From Tenacibaculum skagerrakense (GTDB lineage Bacteria > Bacteroidota > Bacteroidia > Flavobacteriales > Flavobacteriaceae), in NCBI RefSeq assembly GCF_004345825.1, contig NZ_SLXM01000002.1:62001-126000 (forward strand): a stretch of DNA of 64,000 nt, read 5' to 3'. The notes under the pieces were generated by a model. It saw nothing but the letters and a program-made list of their open reading frames with translations, made no database searches and was not told where the DNA came from. Positions 3,351 through 29,326 of the stretch are shown in pieces (positions within the stretch are counted from its first letter, which is position 1; every line of letters starts with the position of its first letter). Made by a program: the position numbers and the translations under genes.

Positions 3351-4457
3351 ATGAAATACACAACACGAAAAAAAGCACTAGTTTTACTTGCAGACGGTAC
3401 AGTTTTTTATGGTAAATCTGTAGGGATTGAAGGTACTGTAACAGGAGAAATTTGCTTCAATACTGGTATGACTGGCTATCAAGAAATTTTTACGGATCCA
3501 TCTTATTTTGGACAGTTAATGGTGGCTACTAATGCTCATATCGGTAACTACGGAATTAATAATGATGAAGTAGAATCTGAAGGAATAAAAATTTCTGGAT
3601 TAATTTGTAGAAACTTTAGTTTTGAACACTCTCGTGTTGATTCAGATGGAAACTTAAAAGATTGGTTTGAAAAACACAATTTAGTTGCAATTTCAGATGT
3701 TGATACAAGAGCACTTGTTTCTTACATTAGAGAGAATGGAGCAATGAATGCCATTATTTCTACAGAAACAGATAATGTAGCCGATTTAAAGAAGCAATTA
3801 GCTGAAGTCCCTAATATGGAAGGTTTAGAGTTGGCTTCTCAGGTTTCTACAAAAGAACCATATTTTGTGGGTAATGAAAATGCAACATTTAAGATAGCGG
3901 CGTTAGATATTGGTATTAAAAAGAATATCTTACGAAATCTAGCTAAAAGAGATGCTTATATTAAGGTGTATCCATACAATGCAAAATTCGAAGAGTTAGC
4001 ATCTTGGAATCCAGATGGCTATTTTATTTCAAATGGACCAGGAGATCCTGAGCCTTTAGTTGAAGCTCAAGATTTAGCGAAAGAAATTATTAAAAGAGAT
4101 TTACCTTTGTTTGGAATTTGTTTAGGGCATCAAGTTATCGCTTTAGCAAATGGTATTTCTACCTATAAAATGCATAACGGACACAGAGGAATAAATCATC
4201 CTGTAAAGAATTTACTTACCGGTAAAGGGGAAATTACTTCTCAAAACCATGGTTTTGCTATTAATAGAGAGGAAACGGAAGCACATGGAGATGTAGAAAT
4301 TACACACGTGCATTTAAATGACAATACAGTAGCTGGAATAAAAATGAAGAGTAAGAACGTGTTTTCTGTTCAATATCATCCAGAAGCAAGTCCAGGGCCA
4401 CATGATTCAGAATACTTATTTGATCAGTTTATAGAGAACATAAAATCGACTAAATAA
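3351..4457 (+). CDS. carA: Carbamoyl-phosphate synthase small (glutaminase) subunit
   Basis: CarA hydrolyses glutamine and channels ammonia to CarB for carbamoyl phosphate, feeding pyrimidine and arginine synthesis. From the ATG at 3351 the protein has 368 residues. The N-terminal CarA domain begins MKYTTRKKALVLLADGTVFYG, and a class I glutamine amidotransferase domain occupies about residues 180-365. It shows the nucleophile elbow FGICLGHQ and the YHPEASPGPHD segment with the catalytic His and Glu. An upstream in-frame GTG at 3312 is rejected because it adds a non-conserved leader. carB is not adjacent. Confidence 0.96.
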   Translation: MKYTTRKKALVLLADGTVFYGKSVGIEGTVTGEICFNTGMTGYQEIFTDPSYFGQLMVATNAHIGNYGINNDEVESEGIKISGLICRNFSFEHSRVDSDGNLKDWFEKHNLVAISDVDTRALVSYIRENGAMNAIISTETDNVADLKKQLAEVPNMEGLELASQVSTKEPYFVGNENATFKIAALDIGIKKNILRNLAKRDAYIKVYPYNAKFEELASWNPDGYFISNGPGDPEPLVEAQDLAKEIIKRDLPLFGICLGHQVIALANGISTYKMHNGHRGINHPVKNLLTGKGEITSQNHGFAINREETEAHGDVEITHVHLNDNTVAGIKMKSKNVFSVQYHPEASPGPHDSEYLFDQFIENIKSTK

Positions 4458-4554
4458 GTTGTTAAAACTGAAAACGATTTCGTAGAAATTATCTAAAAAC
4501 TTAACTAATAAACTGTAGCATTTGTAAATTAGCTACAATCAAATTAAAAAATAA

Positions 4555-5847
<1,293 letters not shown>

Positions 5848-5870
5848 TTCTTCAATCAAGATATACAGTA

Positions 5871-5897
5871 AAAATCCCGGAATTCCGGGATTTTTTT
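5871..5897 (+). terminator. Terminator after eno, perfect palindrome
   Basis: Positions 5871-5894 form a perfect 24-nt palindrome (AAAATCCCGG followed by its mirror around AATT) and continue into T residues. It is placed 23 bases after the enolase stop codon. Confidence 0.9.
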
Positions 5898-6049
5898 ATG
5901 GAAGACTTTTTCTGTCAAATATTCATAAATAAACGTAATAGTTTTTTGTAATTTTTTTAATAGAAATCTGTATGACAACATTTTCAAAATGGTTTAAAAA
6001 ATGGTATCTTCGTGCATCATTTAAATTTTATTAAAAAACAGATATAAGA

Positions 6050-7336
6050 ATGTCAGAAATAGCGAAACTACAAATTGGCGAAAATACATACGAGTTTCCT
6101 TTGGTAAAGGGTACTGAGAATGAGGTTGCAATTGATATTAAAACGTTAAGAGATGCTACTGGTGGTGTTACTACTATAGATCCAGGTTTTAAAAATACTG
6201 GTTCTTGCCTAAGTTCAATTACGTTTCTAAATGGTGAAGAAGGAGTTTTACGTTATAGAGGATATTCTATCGAAGAGTTAGCTGAGAAGGCAGACTTTTT
6301 AGAGGTAGCTTATTTATTAATTTTTGGTGAATTACCAACAAAAGAGCAATTAGATAGATTTTACAATGACATCTTAGATAATGCAATTGTTGATGATGAT
6401 ATTAAAAAAATCATTGATGCGTTCCCTAAAAACGCTCACCCAATGGGAGTTTTATCTTCTTTAACATCGGCATTAACTGCTTTTAACCCTTCTTCTGTAA
6501 ACGTAGATTCTGAAGAGGATATGTATAGAGCGATAGTTAAAATTATGGGTAAATTCCCTGTTTTAGTAGCTTGGACTTTACGTAAAAAGCAAGGATTCCC
6601 ATTAGATTATGGTTCTAGAAAACTTGGTTATGTAGAGAATGTATTACACATGATGTTCAAGAAACCTAATCAAGATTACGATCAGAATCCTATTTTAGTA
6701 AATGCTTTAGATAAGTTATTAATTTTACATGCAGATCATGAACAAAACTGTTCTACTTCAACAGTAAGAATAGTTGGTTCTTCTCATGCAGGTTTATTTG
6801 CTTCGCTTTCTGCTGGTATTTCAGCTCTTTGGGGACCATTACACGGTGGTGCTAACCAAGCGGTATTAGAAATGTTAGAAGCTATTAAAGCAGATGGAGG
6901 AGATACAAAAAAATACATGGCGAAAGCTAAAGATAAAGATGATCCTTTCCGTTTAATGGGATTCGGACATAGGGTGTATAAGAATTTTGATCCTCGAGCT
7001 AAGATTATCAAGAAAGCGGCTGACGAAGTTTTAAATGATTTAGGAGTAAATGATCCTATTTTAGATATAGCTAAAGGTTTAGAACAAGAAGCTTTAAATG
7101 ATGATTATTTCGTAAAGAGAAAATTATATCCTAATGTTGATTTCTATTCAGGAATTATATACAGAGCAATGGGAATTCCAGTAGAAATGTTTACAGTTAT
7201 GTTTGCTTTAGGACGTTTACCAGGTTGGATTGCTCAGTGGAGAGAAATGCGTTTACGCAAAGAACCAATTGGTCGTCCACGTCAAGTATATACAGGAGAA
7301 AATTACCGTCCTTTTGTAGATATTAACAAAAGATAA
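6050..7336 (+). CDS. gltA: Citrate synthase
   Basis: Citrate synthase condenses acetyl-CoA with oxaloacetate at the entry of the TCA cycle. The 428-residue length fits the hexameric type II class of bacteria. Visible active-site segments are DHEQNCSTSTVRIVGSS, GPLHGGANQAVLEML, FGHRVYKNFDPRA and the catalytic Asp in NVDFYSGIIYRAMG. The C-terminus with GRPRQVYTG is typical. It has its own upstream region (203 bp after eno) with a TATCTTCG -7-like box at 6004-6011, and is followed by a hairpin terminator. Confidence 0.97.
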   Translation: MSEIAKLQIGENTYEFPLVKGTENEVAIDIKTLRDATGGVTTIDPGFKNTGSCLSSITFLNGEEGVLRYRGYSIEELAEKADFLEVAYLLIFGELPTKEQLDRFYNDILDNAIVDDDIKKIIDAFPKNAHPMGVLSSLTSALTAFNPSSVNVDSEEDMYRAIVKIMGKFPVLVAWTLRKKQGFPLDYGSRKLGYVENVLHMMFKKPNQDYDQNPILVNALDKLLILHADHEQNCSTSTVRIVGSSHAGLFASLSAGISALWGPLHGGANQAVLEMLEAIKADGGDTKKYMAKAKDKDDPFRLMGFGHRVYKNFDPRAKIIKKAADEVLNDLGVNDPILDIAKGLEQEALNDDYFVKRKLYPNVDFYSGIIYRAMGIPVEMFTVMFALGRLPGWIAQWREMRLRKEPIGRPRQVYTGENYRPFVDINKR

Positions 7337-19713: not shown

Positions 19714-19911
19714 ATGAAAAAACTATTGATTTTATGTATGGGAGTAATGTTTGTTATTGCTTGTACAGACAAGAAAAAAGATGATAAAAAAACCGAAGAA
19801 GCAATCCAAAAAATAGATTCTATCCAAGCAGATGTTGAAAAAGATATCGAAAAATTAGAAAATTCTACTAAAGAAGTAGAAGAAGAATTAAAAGAATTAG
19901 ATAATATTTAA
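19714..19911 (+). CDS. Small coiled-coil lipoprotein
   Basis: The 65-residue product has a lipoprotein signal peptide, MKKLLILCMGVMFVIAC, with lipobox VIAC and a charged start TDKKKDDKK. The mature peptide is a single predicted amphipathic helix, rich in Glu and Lys with regular hydrophobic spacing (AIQKIDSIQADVEKDIEKLE). It should be anchored by lipid to a membrane facing the periplasm or surface, perhaps analogous in shape to Lpp-type helices. Family unknown. The next gene starts 12 bases later, so the two are likely co-transcribed. Confidence 0.8.
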   Translation: MKKLLILCMGVMFVIACTDKKKDDKKTEEAIQKIDSIQADVEKDIEKLENSTKEVEEELKELDNI

Positions 19912-19923
19912 AAACTAGAAGAA

Positions 19924-20616
19924 ATGAGAAATTTTAAATTTTTATGTTCGCTACTTTTATTAGTAGCTTTTTTGAGTGTACAAGGAGTTCAGGCTCAAGG
20001 TAAAGGAAAAGGTTTAGAAAAAAAGGCTGAGAAAGCTGCGAAAAAAGGTAAAGAAAAAACTAAGGATGTTGCAGAAGAAGAGTTAGAGGATGTAAAGGAA
20101 AAAGGTAAAGATAAAGCGGATGAAATAAAAGGAAAAGGCAAGGAAAAAGCAGAGGAAATGAAGCAAAAGGGAAAGGATAAAACTAAAGGAGAAGATGACG
20201 ATGATAAAGAAGATGATGGTGAAGAAAAAAAAGATAAGGAAGTAAAGGATAAAAAAGAGTTTAAAGGAAAAGGAAATGCTTATGGAAGAAATAAAGGAGA
20301 CATGAGCGGAAAGGAATTTGGTAGATTACGTTCTCAAGAAGCTAAGAACAAACTTAAAGAGCAAGAAGATAGAATTAAGGCAAGTGAAGAAGTTTTGGTT
20401 AGAGGAAGAGATAAAGTTAAAGTTGCTGAAGAAAAATTAGAAGAAGATAAAAAAGAGAAAAAAATAACTGATGAAGAGGCATCTAAAAAAGAAGAAGTTA
20501 TCAAAAAGGCGAAAGATAAATTAGATGAGTTAGATGAAAGAATTAAAGAACAAAAGGAAAAAATTAAAAAAGAAAAAGAAGCTTTAGAAAAAATTTTATT
20601 CCCTGAAGATAATTAG
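19924..20616 (+). CDS. Exported Lys/Glu-rich low-complexity coiled-coil protein
   Basis: The 230-residue protein has a signal peptide ending near VQAQ (about residue 25). The mature region is almost entirely Lys, Glu, Asp and Gly: repeated KGK and KGKEK units to about residue 100, a short RNKGDMSGKEFGRLRSQEAK segment around 125, then long charged helices to the end. It is probably periplasmic or surface-exposed and extended. Low complexity makes homology assignment unsafe. It appears to be in an operon with the lipoprotein before it and is followed by a terminator. Confidence 0.78.
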   Translation: MRNFKFLCSLLLLVAFLSVQGVQAQGKGKGLEKKAEKAAKKGKEKTKDVAEEELEDVKEKGKDKADEIKGKGKEKAEEMKQKGKDKTKGEDDDDKEDDGEEKKDKEVKDKKEFKGKGNAYGRNKGDMSGKEFGRLRSQEAKNKLKEQEDRIKASEEVLVRGRDKVKVAEEKLEEDKKEKKITDEEASKKEEVIKKAKDKLDELDERIKEQKEKIKKEKEALEKILFPEDN

Positions 20617-20811: not shown

Positions 20812-21147
20812 ATGCGTAATAAAATTAAATTTATTGTAATGCTTCTTATAATAGCATTGTTGCCAAGCAAAATTATTGCACAAAGTTCTTCAGTTAAAAA
20901 AGAAATTTCATCAAAAGAAAAATCCGAAAATAAAGTAGTTTCTACTGAAGAGTCTTCGCCTTACATAATGAATGTAAAGATTAAGAAAACAAAAGAAAAT
21001 AAAAAGGTAGTTTCTTCAGTGGTTATTGAAGAAAATAAGAAAATAAAAGAAAATACTAGCCCAAAAAGTAACTCGTCTATAGCCTCTAAAAAGAAGAGGT
21101 TAAGATTGAGAAAGACTAAAAAAAATAAAAGTAAAGTTACTAAGTAG
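20812..21147 (+). CDS. Small basic secreted protein, tandem family member 1
   Basis: The 111-residue protein has a signal peptide cleaved after about residue 24 (LLPSKIIAQ). The mature part is Lys/Ser-rich, contains MNVKIKKTKENKK near the middle (related to the INVKASTKDKKEA segment of member 2), and ends in the basic cluster KKKRLRLRKTKKNK. Unlike members 2 and 3 it lacks the C-terminal cysteine pair. No known domain is evident. It has its own 195-bp upstream region after the preceding stop. Confidence 0.75.
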   Translation: MRNKIKFIVMLLIIALLPSKIIAQSSSVKKEISSKEKSENKVVSTEESSPYIMNVKIKKTKENKKVVSSVVIEENKKIKENTSPKSNSSIASKKKRLRLRKTKKNKSKVTK

Positions 21148-21188
21148 TAATCGATTGATTTTTAATGTTTAAAAGATCTAAAATGTTT

Positions 21189-21218
21189 ATTCATCGATAC
21201 ATTAAAACCATTCATCGA
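21189..21218 (+). promoter_or_regulatory. Direct repeats with 21-bp period upstream of family member 2
   Basis: ATTCATCGA occurs at 21189-21197 and again at 21210-21218, two helical turns apart, about 70-100 bp before the start of member 2. LytTR-type regulators bind pairs of roughly 9-bp direct repeats with this spacing. The assignment to such a regulator is inference; the repeats are seen directly. Confidence 0.35.
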
Positions 21219-21286
21219 ACTTTACCGATAAAAACAGCAAATAATTAGTTTCTTTGATGTACGATTCAATTAAATCCCCCAAGATT

Positions 21287-21640
21287 ATGAATGCTAGACT
21301 TACAATATTAGCATCTTTTTTAACAGTATTCTTAGGCTTTCAGCAAATTACAGCACAAAAGGTAATTGCTAAAAAAGGAAGCGGAATTGAGTACAAAGAA
21401 GATAAAAAAGAAATAAACGATTTAAACTCAATAACTGCTCCATCTAATGCAGTCACTATAAATGTGAAAGCTTCAACTAAGGATAAGAAAGAAGCTAAAG
21501 ATAAAATTACATCTGTAAAGAAAGTTGAGAAATTAATTAAGCAAAAGAAGCTTTTAAGGTTTAGAAACAAAAGAAAAAAAGAAGATACTAAGTGTTTCAA
21601 AGAAGCTAAAAAGCCTTGTGATGCTGATAAAAAAGAATAA
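21287..21640 (+). CDS. Small basic secreted protein, tandem family member 2
   Basis: From the ATG at 21287 the 117-residue protein has a signal peptide ending QQITAQ. The mature N-terminus KVIAKKGSGIEYKEDKKEINDLNSI aligns in spacing with member 3. The C-terminus has the basic motif LLRFRNKRKK followed by KCFKEAKKPCD, giving a conserved cysteine pair. Starts at 21254 and 21257 would place 10-11 residues before the signal peptide and are rejected. It is secreted through Sec and may form one disulfide; function unknown. Confidence 0.75.
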   Translation: MNARLTILASFLTVFLGFQQITAQKVIAKKGSGIEYKEDKKEINDLNSITAPSNAVTINVKASTKDKKEAKDKITSVKKVEKLIKQKKLLRFRNKRKKEDTKCFKEAKKPCDADKKE

Positions 21641-21644
21641 ATTA

Positions 21645-21667
21645 AAAACTGCCTAGGCAGTTTTTTT
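21645..21667 (+). terminator. Terminator after family member 2
   Basis: A perfect palindrome (AAAACTGCCTAGGCAGTTTT) centred near 21655 continues into T residues right after the stop codon. Confidence 0.85.
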
Positions 21668-21789
21668 ATGCGTTGTTGTTTCGTTTAACTTTTTTTAACT
21701 TTTTATTTGTAAAGTTTTTCAAAGTACTATGACTTACTAAAGGTAAATACTGCAGTTTACGTAAAGTAGTAACCATTAAATTATAAGTC

Positions 21790-22137
21790 ATGAAACCAAT
21801 TACTATATTTCTATTTTCATTATTATTAAGTATATATTCTAGTAAGATTAATGCCCAAACTGTAGTTGCTCAAAATAAAGTCGAGTATATAGAAGATAAC
21901 CCACACGATTTAAATAAAATTAAAGTTCTTCAGCATTCTAAAGTAGAAAAAAAGAAAATGCCTTCTCAAAAGAAGCAAATAGAAAAGATTGTTAAAAATA
22001 TGATTCTATTAAAAGTGGTAAAGAATAAAAAGCGCTTACGATTTAGGAATAAAAGGAACCAACCAGCAGGTAAATGTTATAGAGAAGGCAGTTGTGATGA
22101 TCAAAAAATAGAATTGGATAGAAATAAAATACAATAA
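21790..22137 (+). CDS. Small basic secreted protein, tandem family member 3
   Basis: The 115-residue protein has a signal peptide ending SSKINAQ. The mature start TVVAQNKVEYIEDNPHDLNKI parallels member 2 (VIA, EY.ED, DLN.I). The C-terminal module reads RLRFRNKRNQ then GKCYREGSCDD, matching the LRFRNKR and two-cysteine arrangement of member 2. The 150-bp upstream region holds repeated TTAACTTTTT tracts. This is the clearest evidence, with member 2, of a small exported protein family not known to me. Confidence 0.77.
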   Translation: MKPITIFLFSLLLSIYSSKINAQTVVAQNKVEYIEDNPHDLNKIKVLQHSKVEKKKMPSQKKQIEKIVKNMILLKVVKNKKRLRFRNKRNQPAGKCYREGSCDDQKIELDRNKIQ

Positions 22138-22182: not shown

Positions 22183-23832
22183 TTACTTTAAAACTTCATC
22201 AATTACTTTTCCAGTAGTAGCATTAGGAAACTCTATTTTTAGCATATTGGCAATAGTTGGAGCTATATCAATGATTTCATATTTTTTGGCTGATGAACCT
22301 TTACGAATACTATTACCATAGAAAATCATAGGAATATGTGTATCATAAGAATATCCAGAACCATGCGTAGAACCTTTTTTGGGATAAATAATAGTTGAAG
22401 GTTCAGGGATTAATAAAATGTCTCCCGAAAGCTTTTGATTATATCCTTTTTGCAACGAACTTAATATACCGTACTCGAAATAACTGGTTTGCATAGTTTT
22501 AGCAGTTACGGCTTTGTAAATTCCTTTAAAATTAATGATTTCCTCCACAATAAAACTTGAAACTTCATCAACTGAAAGCTTTTTGTTCTTAATTTCTTCT
22601 TTATTTAAAAATACTTGGAAATTAGAGACGTTTTCAATCAATTTATCAGTTTTGTATTTTTCCTTTGTAATGTCAATTATAAAATCTGTAAGTTTTTTCC
22701 CAGGTAAATAATTAGCAGGTATTTTAATTGACTGTAAATAAGCAGGTACTTGAATGGCAGCGTGATCTGCTGTTAAAAATAAGGTGTAACTGTTGCTTCC
22801 AATATTTTTATCTAAGTAATTGAAAAGTCGTTCTAAGTCTTTGTCAAGCCTTAAGTAAGTATCTTCAATTTCTTTTGAATCTACACCAAATCTATGACCA
22901 ACATAATCAGTAGATGAATAACTTAATGTTAAAAAATCAATATATTCACCTTGTCCTAGTTTTTCATTTTCAATAGCTGCAATAGCAAAATCGGTTGTTA
23001 AAGAATTTCCCGCAGGAATTTCTTTAATAATACTATAATTATTGTTTTTACTTCTTAACCCAGGAATATCATGAGGAAAAATTGGTTTGTTTTCTCCTTC
23101 AAACAACTTTTCATAGTCATTATCATCAGCAATACTTTCAGTATATGTGTTAATATCATACAAAGTTTTCCATGGTTTACTTAAATACTCGTCTGGTTTT
23201 TTAAGGTTGTTAAATTTAGTAACCCAGTTTGGTAGAGAGTCCATATAAAAAGAAGAACTAATCCAATTACCAATACTTCCTCCATCAAACCAATAAGCAG
23301 CATTGGCTGTATGACCAGCAGGTAAAATAGCAGAACGATCTTTAATTCCTATTCCAATAGTTTTTCCTTGTTTGTTTTGAGCAAGTTGTAATTGGTCTGT
23401 AATAGTAGTAGTAAATAATCTTTTAGGCGATTTTTTTCCTCCATCGCTATTATTTCCAACAGTATTATAAGTTGAATCATCTACGCAATAAATCATTTCC
23501 TTTTGATATTTATCATACCAGTGATTTCCTATAATTCCATGATTGTCGGGTGTAGTTCCTGTAAAAATAGAGGTATGCCCAACAGCAGTGTACGTTGGAA
23601 TATAATTATAATGAGCATTCTCCAAAGAAAACCCCTCTTTTAATAACCTTTTAAAACCACCTTCACCATATTTACTGTTAAACCTATACAGGTAGTCATA
23701 TCGCATTTGATCTACAACAATACCAATTACTAGTTTTGGTTTTGAATTCTTGTCTGTTAATTGATTTGATTTAGGAGTACAGTTAAAAAAAATAACTGAT
23801 AAAATAAACAATAATTTACTACTTGCTTTCAT
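22183..23832 (-). CDS. pafA: PafA-type alkaline phosphatase, lipoprotein
   Basis: PafA is the phosphate-irrepressible alkaline phosphatase of Bacteroidota, releasing phosphate from monoesters in the periplasm. The 549-residue protein has a signal peptide with possible lipobox FFNC. It then has VVDQMRYDYLYR with metal Asp, the nucleophile region PTYTAVGHTSIFTG with Thr, the substrate-binding GIKDRSAILPAGH, and metal ligands in YVGHRFG and LTADHAA. GSTHGSGYSYDTHIPM lies near the end. Length and motifs agree with PafA rather than PhoX or PhoA. Confidence 0.9.
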   Translation of the reverse strand: MKASSKLLFILSVIFFNCTPKSNQLTDKNSKPKLVIGIVVDQMRYDYLYRFNSKYGEGGFKRLLKEGFSLENAHYNYIPTYTAVGHTSIFTGTTPDNHGIIGNHWYDKYQKEMIYCVDDSTYNTVGNNSDGGKKSPKRLFTTTITDQLQLAQNKQGKTIGIGIKDRSAILPAGHTANAAYWFDGGSIGNWISSSFYMDSLPNWVTKFNNLKKPDEYLSKPWKTLYDINTYTESIADDNDYEKLFEGENKPIFPHDIPGLRSKNNNYSIIKEIPAGNSLTTDFAIAAIENEKLGQGEYIDFLTLSYSSTDYVGHRFGVDSKEIEDTYLRLDKDLERLFNYLDKNIGSNSYTLFLTADHAAIQVPAYLQSIKIPANYLPGKKLTDFIIDITKEKYKTDKLIENVSNFQVFLNKEEIKNKKLSVDEVSSFIVEEIINFKGIYKAVTAKTMQTSYFEYGILSSLQKGYNQKLSGDILLIPEPSTIIYPKKGSTHGSGYSYDTHIPMIFYGNSIRKGSSAKKYEIIDIAPTIANMLKIEFPNATTGKVIDEVLK

Positions 23833-25978: not shown

Positions 25979-27181
25979 TTAATTAGGAATAGGTAACGTG
26001 AAATGGAAAGTAGCTCCTTCACCCTCAATTGAACTTACCCAAATAGTTCCATCAAATAAGTCAATAATTTTTTTCACAATCGATAGACCAATTCCTGTTG
26101 AATTTTGATGATCGTCTAAGGTTTCAAATATTCCAAAGACCTTTTTATGGTATTTTTTTGGAATTCCTTTACCATTATCACTTATTTGAAATTCCCAAAA
26201 ATCCTTTTTAGTTTCGTAAGTGATACTAACTTCACCATTATCTTTATCAGCATATTTTACAGCATTGCTAATTAAGTTTTGAAATAATTGATGGAGTCTA
26301 AACTTATCTCCTTCGGCTATTGGTAATTTCTCTGGAATAATTACTTTGACATTCTCTGGAATATGAATGGTGTCTAATATAATATCTACTACTTCTTGTA
26401 AATCAATATCCTTTTTAGGGTGCTCTATTTTATCAATACTAGCATATTTAAGAATACCATTGATAAGATGGTCCATCTTATCAATCTTCTTTAGTAGCAA
26501 CTCAAAATTTTCTTTTATACTCTCGTCTTCAGAAAGTTCTAGACAATCTTCTTGTAGCCAACTAACCAATGCATTCATGCTTCTTAAAGGAGCTTTTAAA
26601 TCATGAGAAACAACATGAGCAAAGTCGTTTAGCTCTTGGTTACTTTTCTTTAAGTTTTTTAGTAGAAGTTCTTTTTCCTTTTGAATGGTAAGTCTATCCG
26701 TAATATCTCTTAAAACACCTTGAGTAAAAGTAGGTTTTCCTTTTTCATCGTATACAATACTAGGGCTAATTTCTATCCACCTTATTTCTTTGTTCTTATT
26801 AAAAACTCGCGCTTTGTAATTTTTAATTGCCCCTTTTTCTAAGAGTCTATAATATGTTTTTTTAGCGAAAGGAACATCTTCGGGTACTAGTAAAGAAATA
26901 ACATTGAATACTTCGTTTTCAATATCATAACCAAAAAAATCAGCAGCAGCATCATTCATTTTAACAACATTACCGTACAAATCCATAAGTATATAAGGAT
27001 CTACTATAGTTTGAAACAAACTATGAAGTTGTATTTCTTTTTCGTTAATAACTTTTCGAAGGGTAAGGTTGGCTTTTAGAAGCTCTGAGGTTTTTTCTTC
27101 AAGATTCTTCTCAGCTTCGATTCTTGCTTGCTTTTCGCGTTCTAATGCTTTTTCTAGTACTTCTATGTTCTTCGTAATCAC
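25979..27181 (-). CDS. Soluble PAS-domain histidine kinase
   Basis: The 400-residue kinase has no membrane segment. It begins with a coiled coil (residues 1-45), then a PAS domain with PAC tail (about 48-170, including WIEISPSIVYDEKG). The dimerisation domain has the phosphorylated His in FAHVVSHDLKAPLRS near 195, and the ATPase domain has N box LISNAVKYADKDNG, G1 ISDNGKGIPKK and G2 TGIGLSIVKK. The start is a GTG; no in-frame ATG precedes the PAS domain. It lies downstream of a single-domain response regulator on the same strand, its likely partner. Confidence 0.9.
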   Translation of the reverse strand: MITKNIEVLEKALEREKQARIEAEKNLEEKTSELLKANLTLRKVINEKEIQLHSLFQTIVDPYILMDLYGNVVKMNDAAADFFGYDIENEVFNVISLLVPEDVPFAKKTYYRLLEKGAIKNYKARVFNKNKEIRWIEISPSIVYDEKGKPTFTQGVLRDITDRLTIQKEKELLLKNLKKSNQELNDFAHVVSHDLKAPLRSMNALVSWLQEDCLELSEDESIKENFELLLKKIDKMDHLINGILKYASIDKIEHPKKDIDLQEVVDIILDTIHIPENVKVIIPEKLPIAEGDKFRLHQLFQNLISNAVKYADKDNGEVSITYETKKDFWEFQISDNGKGIPKKYHKKVFGIFETLDDHQNSTGIGLSIVKKIIDLFDGTIWVSSIEGEGATFHFTLPIPN

Positions 27182-27313: not shown

Positions 27314-27718
27314 TTAATTCAAAAGTTCATTATTGGTCCAATAATCTAACATTGTGGTTATGTTTTTGGTATAATCTTCGAAACGTAGAGGTTTTAAAAT
27401 ATAGCCAGCTATTCCTAATTCATAGCAAGTTTTTAAATCATTATAATTATCAGAACTAGACAATATAACTGTAGGAATAAATTTTAATCTTTTATCTGCC
27501 TTAAGGATTTTTAAAAACTCAATGCCATTCATTTTTGGCATGTTTAAATCAAGAAAGATTAAATCAGAAGTAGGATTTTCTAATTTAGAAAGTGCATCTT
27601 CACCATTAACAGCTTCTATTACTGTTGGTTTAAAGTTAGTGTTATTGCAAACTCTAGAAAACTTCATTCTTTCTACTTCATCATCATCAATAAACAAAAT
27701 GTTTAATCTCTTCACCAT
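27314..27718 (-). CDS. Single-domain response regulator (CheY/Rcp-like)
   Basis: The 134-residue protein is a lone receiver domain with the acidic pocket DDD at 11-13, phospho-acceptor Asp57 in LIFLDLNMPKMNG, Ser/Thr switch VILSSS and Lys in YILKPLRF. There is no output domain, so it acts by protein-protein contact or in a phosphorelay. It precedes the PAS histidine kinase by 132 bases on the same strand. The resemblance is to regulators paired with PAS or phytochrome kinases. Confidence 0.92.
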   Translation of the reverse strand: MVKRLNILFIDDDEVERMKFSRVCNNTNFKPTVIEAVNGEDALSKLENPTSDLIFLDLNMPKMNGIEFLKILKADKRLKFIPTVILSSSDNYNDLKTCYELGIAGYILKPLRFEDYTKNITTMLDYWTNNELLN

Positions 27719-27829
27719 AAGTTAATCGTTCTGAATTAATACCGGCCGAAAATTATAAAAAATAACCCCTTAACATATTTTAATTATACAATTAGAAGCG
27801 GTGTTTAGATTAACGGGCATTATCTATAG

Positions 27830-29326
27830 ATGAACGTTTTTACTGATCTTTTCGTATATTTCGATGCAAAAGCAAATTATTATATGGAAGAAATTAAGAA
27901 TGAAGAAATAGACAAATCTAAAGAAGCTGTTAAACAAGATGCTAAAGGTTTGTTTCAGAGTATAAAAACGTTCATGAATGAGCTTTTAGACTTTAGGCAT
28001 GATACTGATCAAGAAGCTACCATTGAAGCGATAAAAAATGATATACCATTTAAAGGAGCTACGGCTTGGATTTTAATTTGCTCTATTTTCGTAGCATCAA
28101 TAGGGTTAAATGCAAACTCTACTGCAGTAGTAATCGGAGCCATGTTAATTTCACCATTAATGGGACCAATTTTAGGAGTAGGTATGTCTTTAGCAATTAA
28201 TGATATTGATACACTTAGAAAATCACTAATCAACTTAGCAACGATGATTGTGTTAAGTTTATTAACTGCGTTTTTGTTCTTTTTCTTATTTCCTCTAAGA
28301 GAAGCAACTTCAGAATTATTGGGTCGTGTTCAACCTGATATTAGAGATGTATTAATTGCATTTTTTGGTGGATTGGCCTTGATTATTGCACGAACAAAAA
28401 AAGGGACTATTGCTTCTGTAATTTTTGGTGTTGCTATTGCTACCGCGTTAATGCCGCCATTATGTACTGCGGGTTATGGTTTAGCAATAGGAAAAATAGA
28501 TTACTTTTTAGGGGCAATGTATTTGTTTACTATTAATGCTATATTCATTGCGCTTGCTACTTTTATTGTGTTAAAGTTGTTAGGGTTTACAATGATTCGT
28601 TATGTGAATTCTAAAAAACGAAAAAGAACTGCACAAATTGCATCAGTTGTAGCATTACTAGTAATGGTTCCTGCTGTAAAAACATTTATCAATGTTTATA
28701 AAGACACTGTTATTGAAGCAGATTATAAAAGATTTTTAGCAGATGAGGTAGAGATTAATCAAGATTTATGGTTATTGAGAAAGCGAAAAGATAACAAAGA
28801 GAAAAAAATACTATTAAGATTTAATGGAGAAGTACCTGAGGCTGTAGAAACTAATTTGAAAGCTAAAGTAAAGTTGTACAAAAGAATAAGTGATTTTAAT
28901 GTAGAGGTTTTAGGAAATAAATCAAGAAGTATAGATGATATTTCTGAATCTTTAGAAAGAGCTTACAATAACTTAGATCAAAAAGATTACGTTATCAATG
29001 GCTTACAAAAAGAAATAGAAGATTTGAAATCTCAAATTTCAAGTTTAAATATAACTATCGAAAAGGCTGATAAAAATATTATCCCATTTAGTTCGATTGC
29101 AAGAGATGCTAAAATACGATTCAGTCAGATTGAAGAAATTCGTTTTTCTAAAATGTTATCTACTAAAGACTTTATAAAAATAGATACCTTACCTCAATTG
29201 AGTGTTTTGTTTAATAAGAAGTACGTCGAAGATTTAAAAGAAAGTTCTCTTTTGAAAAAGGAAGAAGAAATAAGAAAATGGCTTCAGAAGGAAATGAAAT
29301 TAGATACACTTTATCTTAAAAAATAA
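27830..29326 (+). CDS. DUF389 integral membrane protein
   Basis: The 498-residue protein has an acidic cytoplasmic N-terminus of about 75 residues. A block of membrane helices from about 80 to 295 follows, with conserved SIGLNANSTAVVIGAMLISPLMGPILG, FGGLALIIARTKKGTIASV and GVAIATALMPPLCTAGYG, typical of DUF389. The soluble C-terminal part of about 200 residues has a coiled coil near 375-415. The biochemical function of DUF389 is not established; transport or envelope roles have been suggested. It is a single gene ending at a bidirectional terminator. Confidence 0.88.
   Translation: MNVFTDLFVYFDAKANYYMEEIKNEEIDKSKEAVKQDAKGLFQSIKTFMNELLDFRHDTDQEATIEAIKNDIPFKGATAWILICSIFVASIGLNANSTAVVIGAMLISPLMGPILGVGMSLAINDIDTLRKSLINLATMIVLSLLTAFLFFFLFPLREATSELLGRVQPDIRDVLIAFFGGLALIIARTKKGTIASVIFGVAIATALMPPLCTAGYGLAIGKIDYFLGAMYLFTINAIFIALATFIVLKLLGFTMIRYVNSKKRKRTAQIASVVALLVMVPAVKTFINVYKDTVIEADYKRFLADEVEINQDLWLLRKRKDNKEKKILLRFNGEVPEAVETNLKAKVKLYKRISDFNVEVLGNKSRSIDDISESLERAYNNLDQKDYVINGLQKEIEDLKSQISSLNITIEKADKNIIPFSSIARDAKIRFSQIEEIRFSKMLSTKDFIKIDTLPQLSVLFNKKYVEDLKESSLLKKEEEIRKWLQKEMKLDTLYLKK

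Follow-up and report, generated by a model that had tools for sequence, protein, structure and literature searches.

In Firmicutes, bacteriocin and pheromone clusters of the blp and pln type stand under LytTR regulators and comprise several small secreted proteins, with individual genes having an operator of their own; LytTR control of small exported proteins is an already known kind of regulation. A canonical LytTR site consists of two 9-bp direct repeats separated by 10-13 bp (PMC11347149). Among the papers listed in literature searches, none showed an operator motif of a Bacteroidota LytTR regulator. Here, we describe an array of three small genes in Tenacibaculum skagerrakense, one of which is preceded by a tandem repeat with the geometry of such an operator, and a set of other loci at which the same kind of repeat recurs.

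The window, i.e. the whole stretch of 64,000 nucleotides that was analysed, sits on contig C2 of a 3.7 Mb genome. All three genes lie on its forward strand: P0001 (20812-21147, +; ORF of 111 aa) encodes a basic protein with a signal peptide, a YIMNVKIKK segment, a RLRLRK end and no cysteine; P0002 (21287-21640, +; ORF of 117 aa), whose start is an internal ATG within a longer TTG-started frame, encodes a signal peptide, an NDLNSI segment, a Lys-rich middle, LRFRNKR and KCFKEAKKPC; P0003 (21790-22137, +; ORF of 115 aa) encodes LRFRNKR and KCYREGSC. Judged by eye, each protein has a Sec-type signal peptide ending in AQ, and in none of the three was a lipoprotein cysteine seen at the presumed cleavage site. 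Three neighbouring ORFs of 111-117 aa with signal peptides ending in AQ are thus present as the original prediction described them. P0002 and P0003 are homologous (39 of 113 residues identical, 35%; E 2e-11) and do have the LRFRNKR and KC[FY] ... C module in common that had been noticed in them, its key columns being invariant in 30 members of the family. As read from the sequence, a hairpin with a T run that resembles an intrinsic terminator lies 3' of P0002 (21647-21667, +), and another terminator-like hairpin with a T run follows P0003 (22140-22168, +); similar hairpins were seen by eye downstream of the P0002 orthologues in genomes G164, G122, G149 and G578. P0001 has orthologues in G122, G164 and G578. 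Before the array, window positions 19714-20616 hold a small lipoprotein-like gene and a gene for a 230-aa, highly charged, Lys/Glu-rich protein with a signal peptide, and relatives occupy the same place in G122, among the neighbourhoods listed.

We define class A as proteins with a signal peptide, LRFRxKR and a KC ... C end, which includes P0002 and P0003; P0001, devoid of cysteines, is assigned to class B, and the wider family comprises class A, class B and the bridge paralogues introduced below. Three profiles were used: A1 (three rows), A2 (the 30 rows of class A) and A3 (P0001-like genes). A1 matched 26 of 146 congeneric genomes at E <=0.05 among the matches listed, many of the weak matches lying inside long unrelated frames, and A2 matched 17 of the 166 genomes of the genus at E <=0.001 among the matches listed. 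A profile search of flavobacterial genomes had been proposed for these proteins; by A2, 15 of the 166 Tenacibaculum genomes, the window's own included, have a clear array, with a best E <=1.2e-28 in each (among the matches listed). Array genomes carry 1 to 4 copies by A2, and A1 gave 5 in two genomes when short and off-slot matches are included (again among the matches listed). The A2 match in G108 was rejected, being a match to the signal peptide only in a 135-aa frame that looks to be a carboxypeptidase-regulatory-type domain. G127 was left out of the 15 as well: its family member (L157:1293-1640) seems genuine and is frame-broken, far from the usual slot. G149 contains an additional, decayed second copy with six stops. 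In G132, two adjacent copies with 97% protein identity (L058:6860-7722) represent a recent tandem duplication, and a HATPase/HSP90-like gene (PF13589, PF00183) together with an unmatched 357-aa gene (L058:7874-10723) stands between array copies and looks like an insertion.

In a sample of Flavobacteriaceae that covered 237 genera with 397 genomes, 10 genomes matched at E <=0.01 among the matches listed, and the only strong matches in this list came from G000 and G102, both Tenacibaculum; G020, the third Tenacibaculum genome in this sample, gave no match. The eight genomes outside the genus (E 0.002-0.01) were scored as no clear match. A hit of another search, in G007, was rejected since it falls inside the frame of another protein, presumably polyprenyl-synthetase-like. 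As to described families, of which the original prediction knew none with this combination, no Pfam or NCBIfam model reached its cut-off for P0001, P0002 or P0003, the 30 relatives gave weak matches only (each in one or two members), the best match of a PDB sequence search had E 0.17, phage records contained no match to the family, and the titles listed in literature searches included nothing on it. The protein family is new and, within the searched genomes, so far restricted to part of the genus Tenacibaculum.

The kinship of P0001 with its neighbours, also claimed beforehand, needs intermediates. Compared directly, homology of P0001 with class A is unsupported: blastp against P0002 is no better than chance (E 0.46), the class-A profile gives it a score (-0.5 bits) that 885 of the 1800 shuffles pooled over the class-B proteins also reach, and signal-trimmed hhalign of the P0001 group with class A gives E 0.34. 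A3 matched 12 of 166 genomes at E <=0.001 among the matches listed, with the G121 match not counted as a member because it lies inside a 1585-residue frame. In G094, G152, G160 and G563 there are four bridge paralogues, which begin like class A, end in LR[FY]RKKR and have the MNV segment of class B; they are without the cysteine pair, the G094 copy having one cysteine. Their profile gives P0001 14.4 bits, above all 1800 shuffles, and places P0001 and five others of the nine class-B proteins above all shuffles, the remaining three being equalled by 1, 15 and 629 of them. Conversely, the class-A profile scores all four bridge genes above all 800 shuffles, and none of the class-B proteins stands out from shuffles with it. 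For hhalign comparisons the signal peptides were trimmed by a simple rule, and two of the class-B proteins retained a few residues of theirs. The bridge group then matched both sides, class A at 97.6% (E 1.4e-11) and the P0001 group at 91.7% (E 1e-7). As the bridge genes match both sides, these comparisons indicate that P0001 is a member of the wider family, a remote one: the predicted kinship is real by way of the bridge paralogues, and that part of it which rested on direct comparison with class A is not significant.

The array occupies a constant genomic slot. By coordinates it adjoins, in 15 of 15 array genomes, a phosphodiesterase gene (22183-23832, - strand, in the window; Pfam match to PF01663), which we take to be PafA-like and which is itself present in 152 of the 166 genomes of the genus. 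On the other side of the array, a few genes away in the window, lies a PF19420 gene, presumably ctlX-like, that also flanks the arrays of the window's clade among the matches listed. A phosphodiesterase tree was built from 35 genomes, the 15 with arrays and 20 without, the latter mostly those with the most similar phosphodiesterases and therefore not a random choice. In this tree, 12 array genomes form one clade (support 100/100), with G002, G067 and G132 in a neighbouring group; the array label requires three changes, at least two of them by well supported branches, and none of 500 shuffles required as few. Among 43 gene pairs with more than 55% identity, 36 were computable and gave whole-gene average dN/dS values of 0.06-0.45, so the array genes are real and constrained. 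This removes the doubt about coding that had been raised with the original prediction: the members are coding genes, and the family is under purifying selection.

Upstream regions of 48 family genes were scanned for two copies of CC[AG]TTC[AG][AT]CGA at spacings of 15 to 29, with a maximal score of 22 and a threshold of 17. At a spacing of 21 bp, 14 of 48 regions scored at least 17 of 22; each of the other 14 spacings gave 0-3 of 48, and 50 composition-keeping shuffles of the upstream set, in which base composition alone is kept, contained 0 regions at this threshold in each case. These 14 sites consist of two 11-bp repeats in a 21-bp register and end 58-71 bp before the ATG. The one in the window belongs to P0002 (21187-21218, +; TTATTCATCGA + CCATTCATCGA, 21 bp from start to start; score 20/22) and lies 68 bp before the ATG. 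P0001 (score 16) and P0003 (score 14) have no good tandem site, and the switch therefore covers one of the three window genes. We take the 21-bp tandem repeat to be of the LytTR type from its layout and a general consensus. This manner of assigning the type is compatible with the repeats serving some other factor, or being a conserved promoter element of a non-LytTR kind, as is the finding that other family genes carry conserved upstream blocks of quite different sequence: ATGACTTA...CTGCAGTTTAC in four genes, namely P0003 and its orthologues in G164, G122 and G578, GTGACTT in 13 genes, and GAGACTAT...GCATGCTGA in 5. We consider this explanation, which concerns the switch and not the protein, so that its odds and those of the readings below are not exclusive, unlikely: in G000 such a site precedes a LytTR-encoding operon, as expected of autoregulation, and the P0002 site shows the layout of LytTR sites (~9-bp direct repeats, 10-13 bp apart, upstream of a gene) as given in PMC11347149. 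The P0002-type repeat thus has LytTR operator geometry, and LytTR control of these genes may be inferred.

The motif was followed outside the family by means of a sequence-only model, R1, built from the 14 family sites and run on 10 array genomes; per genome, 150 of 4438-7246 first-look candidates were scored and 14-34 matches obtained at E <=10. Because R1 derives from them, matches at those 14 sites are no test of the model, and this includes its best match in the window, the P0002 site (26.7 bits, E 4.2e-07; next best 8.6 bits), which is one of the 14 builders and hence no independent test. At E <=0.0504, the matches listed for the 10 genomes number 37, of which 12 lie at family genes and 25 elsewhere. 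All but one of the latter were examined (24 of 25; G122:C1:208130 left out): 21 of the 25 fall at seven loci that are each matched in at least two genomes, and three are non-recurrent. With the names dus, hadh, cupin, thioredoxin-like and coiled coil read from sequence alone, the seven are (a) a dus-like gene with a noncoding stretch behind it, where the matches lie (5 matches), (b) a gene for a ~359-aa protein that has two TonB_C domains after a signal peptide (5), (c) a gene for a response regulator (3), (d) a position beside a 3-hydroxyacyl-CoA-dehydrogenase-like (hadh) gene (2), (e) a gene for a coiled-coil protein of 300 aa, hydrophobic near its N-terminus, whose G000 and G094 versions are 50% identical (2), (f) a position behind a cupin-like gene (2) and (g) a thioredoxin-like locus, with the site on the strand opposite to the genes (2). 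Locus c in G000 is an operon of a response regulator, a PAS-rich kinase, an Hpt-like protein (below the Pfam cut-off) and a LytTR response regulator, the LytTR gene lying at G000:C6:142812-143531; since an R1 site heads it, the motif stands before a LytTR gene. LytTR regulators are numerous in Bacteroidota, with 22 LytTR domains encoded in this one genome, and the regulator is for that reason not pinned to one of them. A strict consensus pattern gave 5 matches in 17 genomes against 10 for its reversed control, so that the genome-wide claim rests on R1 and on recurrence, not on the strict scan; three of the five lie at family genes, one before a response-regulator gene of G114 and one, left unassigned, in G089. 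G114 has this site and no array, and the family is therefore not needed for the regulatory system. Recurrence at orthologous loci can partly reflect shared DNA ancestry, not function.

Several of these loci deserve description in their own right. The noncoding element on the dus side (L230:2761-3040, -; also in L185, L195, L234, L194, L188 and L203) contains TAAATGAAACATAAAGTAAATCT exactly in 7 genomes; a tandem repeat site precedes it and a terminator-like hairpin follows it in several genomes. Rfam gave no match to it at the five loci scanned, reporting only two tRNAs, in L049, and the element looks like an undescribed small RNA. On the hadh side, a short conserved frame of ~35-40 aa starting with MN[IT]FQP was seen by eye behind the tandem site in G000, G578 and G149 (L228:2981-3395, L189, L193). 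Units of a tandem site, a noncoding stretch and a terminator-like hairpin, again by eye, stand behind the cupin-like gene (L227:5331-5900, L198:1481-2005, L200:1481-1740), repeated in G000 and G094 and occurring once in the G102 stretch. The tandem TonB_C protein has, besides its LytTR-type site, a DLNSI word near the mature N-terminus; as evidence of homology between its N-terminus and the small proteins this likeness is weak (9-78 of 1200 shuffles as high, hhalign 60%), and we do not count it as such.

The window has a kinase pair of its own that is related to the locus c operon. Its single-domain response regulator (27314-27718, -) is paralogous to the gene that opens the RR-kinase-Hpt-LytTR operon (54%, E 3e-50), and its PAS-HisKA-HATPase histidine kinase (25979-27181, -) to the kinase encoded there (44% over 277 aa). 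A variant tandem LytTR-type site (27806-27837, -; score 18/22) lies 87 bp before the ATG of the response regulator. R1 scores it weakly (7.3 bits, E 0.73); such a site is found at 8 of 8 array-genome loci examined, the window included, with scores of 17-18 at 77-90 bp before the response-regulator gene, and four further response-regulator genes (G000, G094, G152, G114) have scores of 16-20 at 84-85 bp. Near the array of G094, a haem-NO-binding gene (PF07700; L054:772-1311) stands between response regulator and kinase, which is absent from the window's pair.

What kind of protein would be switched in this way was approached through the 30 class-A members. All 30 rows of A2 have the same L, three R and two C in the end module LRFRxKR ... 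KC ... C, and the same K ahead of its first C, in line with the two conserved cysteines that had been predicted, and their signal peptides end in AQ or SQ, the Q being invariant in 30 of 30. The basic character proposed for these proteins holds throughout: mature pI values are 9.3-10.5 and net charges +6 to +24 in 30 of 30 members. The charge is unevenly distributed, with a first part of the mature protein that is net negative in 29 of 30 (P0002, at +1, being the exception), and a middle part (+7 to +16) and a C part (+3 to +13) that are both positive in 30 of 30.

Such a charge distribution, with two cysteines in the cationic C part, is what would be expected of secreted antimicrobial, bacteriocin-like precursors under LytTR control, in which the C-terminal peptide, cationic and with a disulfide, would be masked by an acidic propiece until its release outside the cell, where it kills competitors; tandem paralogues present in 15 of 166 genomes and a LytTR-type site before individual genes fit this as well. 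We nevertheless hold it to be rather improbable. The acidic part is itself conserved in the 30-member alignment, no double-glycine leader was seen in the class-A sequences, and inspection by eye of the neighbourhoods listed (taken without G160 and parts of G094 and G083) revealed no recognisable gene for immunity, processing or export. Moreover, all 36 computable pairs are under purifying selection as whole-gene averages, and this, together with promoter sites common to envelope and regulatory genes, favours an envelope protein over a killing peptide.

An AlphaFold2 model from 30 sequences has a mean pLDDT of 60.2 and a pTM of 0.17 and shows, apart from the signal helix, a single helix at 70-87; this low confidence may reflect disorder or an alignment too shallow to allow prediction. 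Strongly basic proteins for which no fold is modelled with confidence could also belong to a matrix or bind DNA, attaching to extracellular DNA or to acidic polysaccharide and aiding biofilm or surface growth. We regard this as improbable, given that no nucleic-acid-binding family matched above cut-off in P0001-P0003, the 30 relatives or the PDB search, and that no T9SS C-terminal sorting domain model occurs among the Pfam and NCBIfam matches of P0001-P0003 and the 30 class-A members, which leaves passage through the outer membrane unsupported. The TonB_C domain (PF03544) likewise had no match in these proteins. Very doubtful, in our opinion, is an extracellular peptide signal, in which precursors are cut at the basic LRFRxKR and the fragment is sensed by the linked kinase and phosphorelay, which in turn switches on its own operon as well as the precursor genes: sites of one type do precede P0002, the neighbouring RR-kinase pair and the RR-kinase-Hpt-LytTR operon, and the two RR-kinase pairs are paralogous, but the kinases have only PAS, HisKA and HATPase domains in Pfam and nothing like an extracytoplasmic sensor, no protease is tied to the LRFRxKR motif, and G114 has the response-regulator site without an array.

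The reading we prefer, at a probability of about one half, is that the array encodes exported, possibly disordered, cationic envelope proteins that are partly under the control of a LytTR phosphorelay; envelope location, disulfide and anionic partner are what we infer for them. A LytTR response regulator, most simply that of the RR-kinase-Hpt-LytTR operon, which has the same kind of site in front, would switch on the P0002-type members and co-activate other envelope proteins and small RNAs. The protein would be exported by Sec and remain unfolded or partly helical, and its acidic or neutral N-terminal segment, Lys-rich stretch, invariant LRFRxKR end and one-disulfide loop would make it a charge-segregated molecule, whose cationic end might dock on an anionic envelope partner, either LPS phosphates, peptidoglycan or a partner protein. 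Paralogues with the same end and different promoters would imply that the set of copies made changes with conditions.

More tentatively, and with clearly less confidence than we place in the envelope proteins as such, the array could be the output, and perhaps also the signal, of a LytTR phosphorelay of Bacteroidota that has not been described before and regulates itself. Its regulon would be a mixed one, made up of exported proteins of the orphan type, the tandem TonB_C protein, a very short conserved ORF and several small RNAs; paralogous exported proteins would have been recruited to this switch in one part of Tenacibaculum and spread over promoter classes, giving a lineage-specific envelope component tuned by several signals. 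In either case, an array of orphan genes becomes a testable part of a candidate regulon, in which a single DNA motif connects a LytTR phosphorelay and a kinase pair with sRNA-like elements and uncharacterised exported proteins.

Among known systems, the Firmicutes clusters of the blp and pln type are alike in having several small secreted proteins and individual genes with their own operator; they differ in that the present proteins have a Sec-type signal, no double-glycine leader seen and, by eye among the neighbourhoods listed, no immunity or ABC exporter gene recognised, are under purifying selection, and have the site on only some of the paralogues. Proteins with a TonB C-terminal domain (PF03544) resemble the array in so far as the tandem TonB_C protein combines the LytTR-type site with the DLNSI word near its mature N-terminus, whereas the small proteins are without the TonB_C domain and the DLNSI likeness is weak against shuffles. 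The AlgR/AgrA/LytR regulons are alike in their paired direct repeats, spaced by two helical turns, which here stand before genes of small signal-peptide proteins and before a LytTR-encoding operon; unlike them, the system described here belongs to Bacteroidota, has an RR-kinase-Hpt-LytTR arrangement and 11-bp CC[AG]TTC[AG][AT]CGA repeats, and carries its sites before noncoding elements as well.
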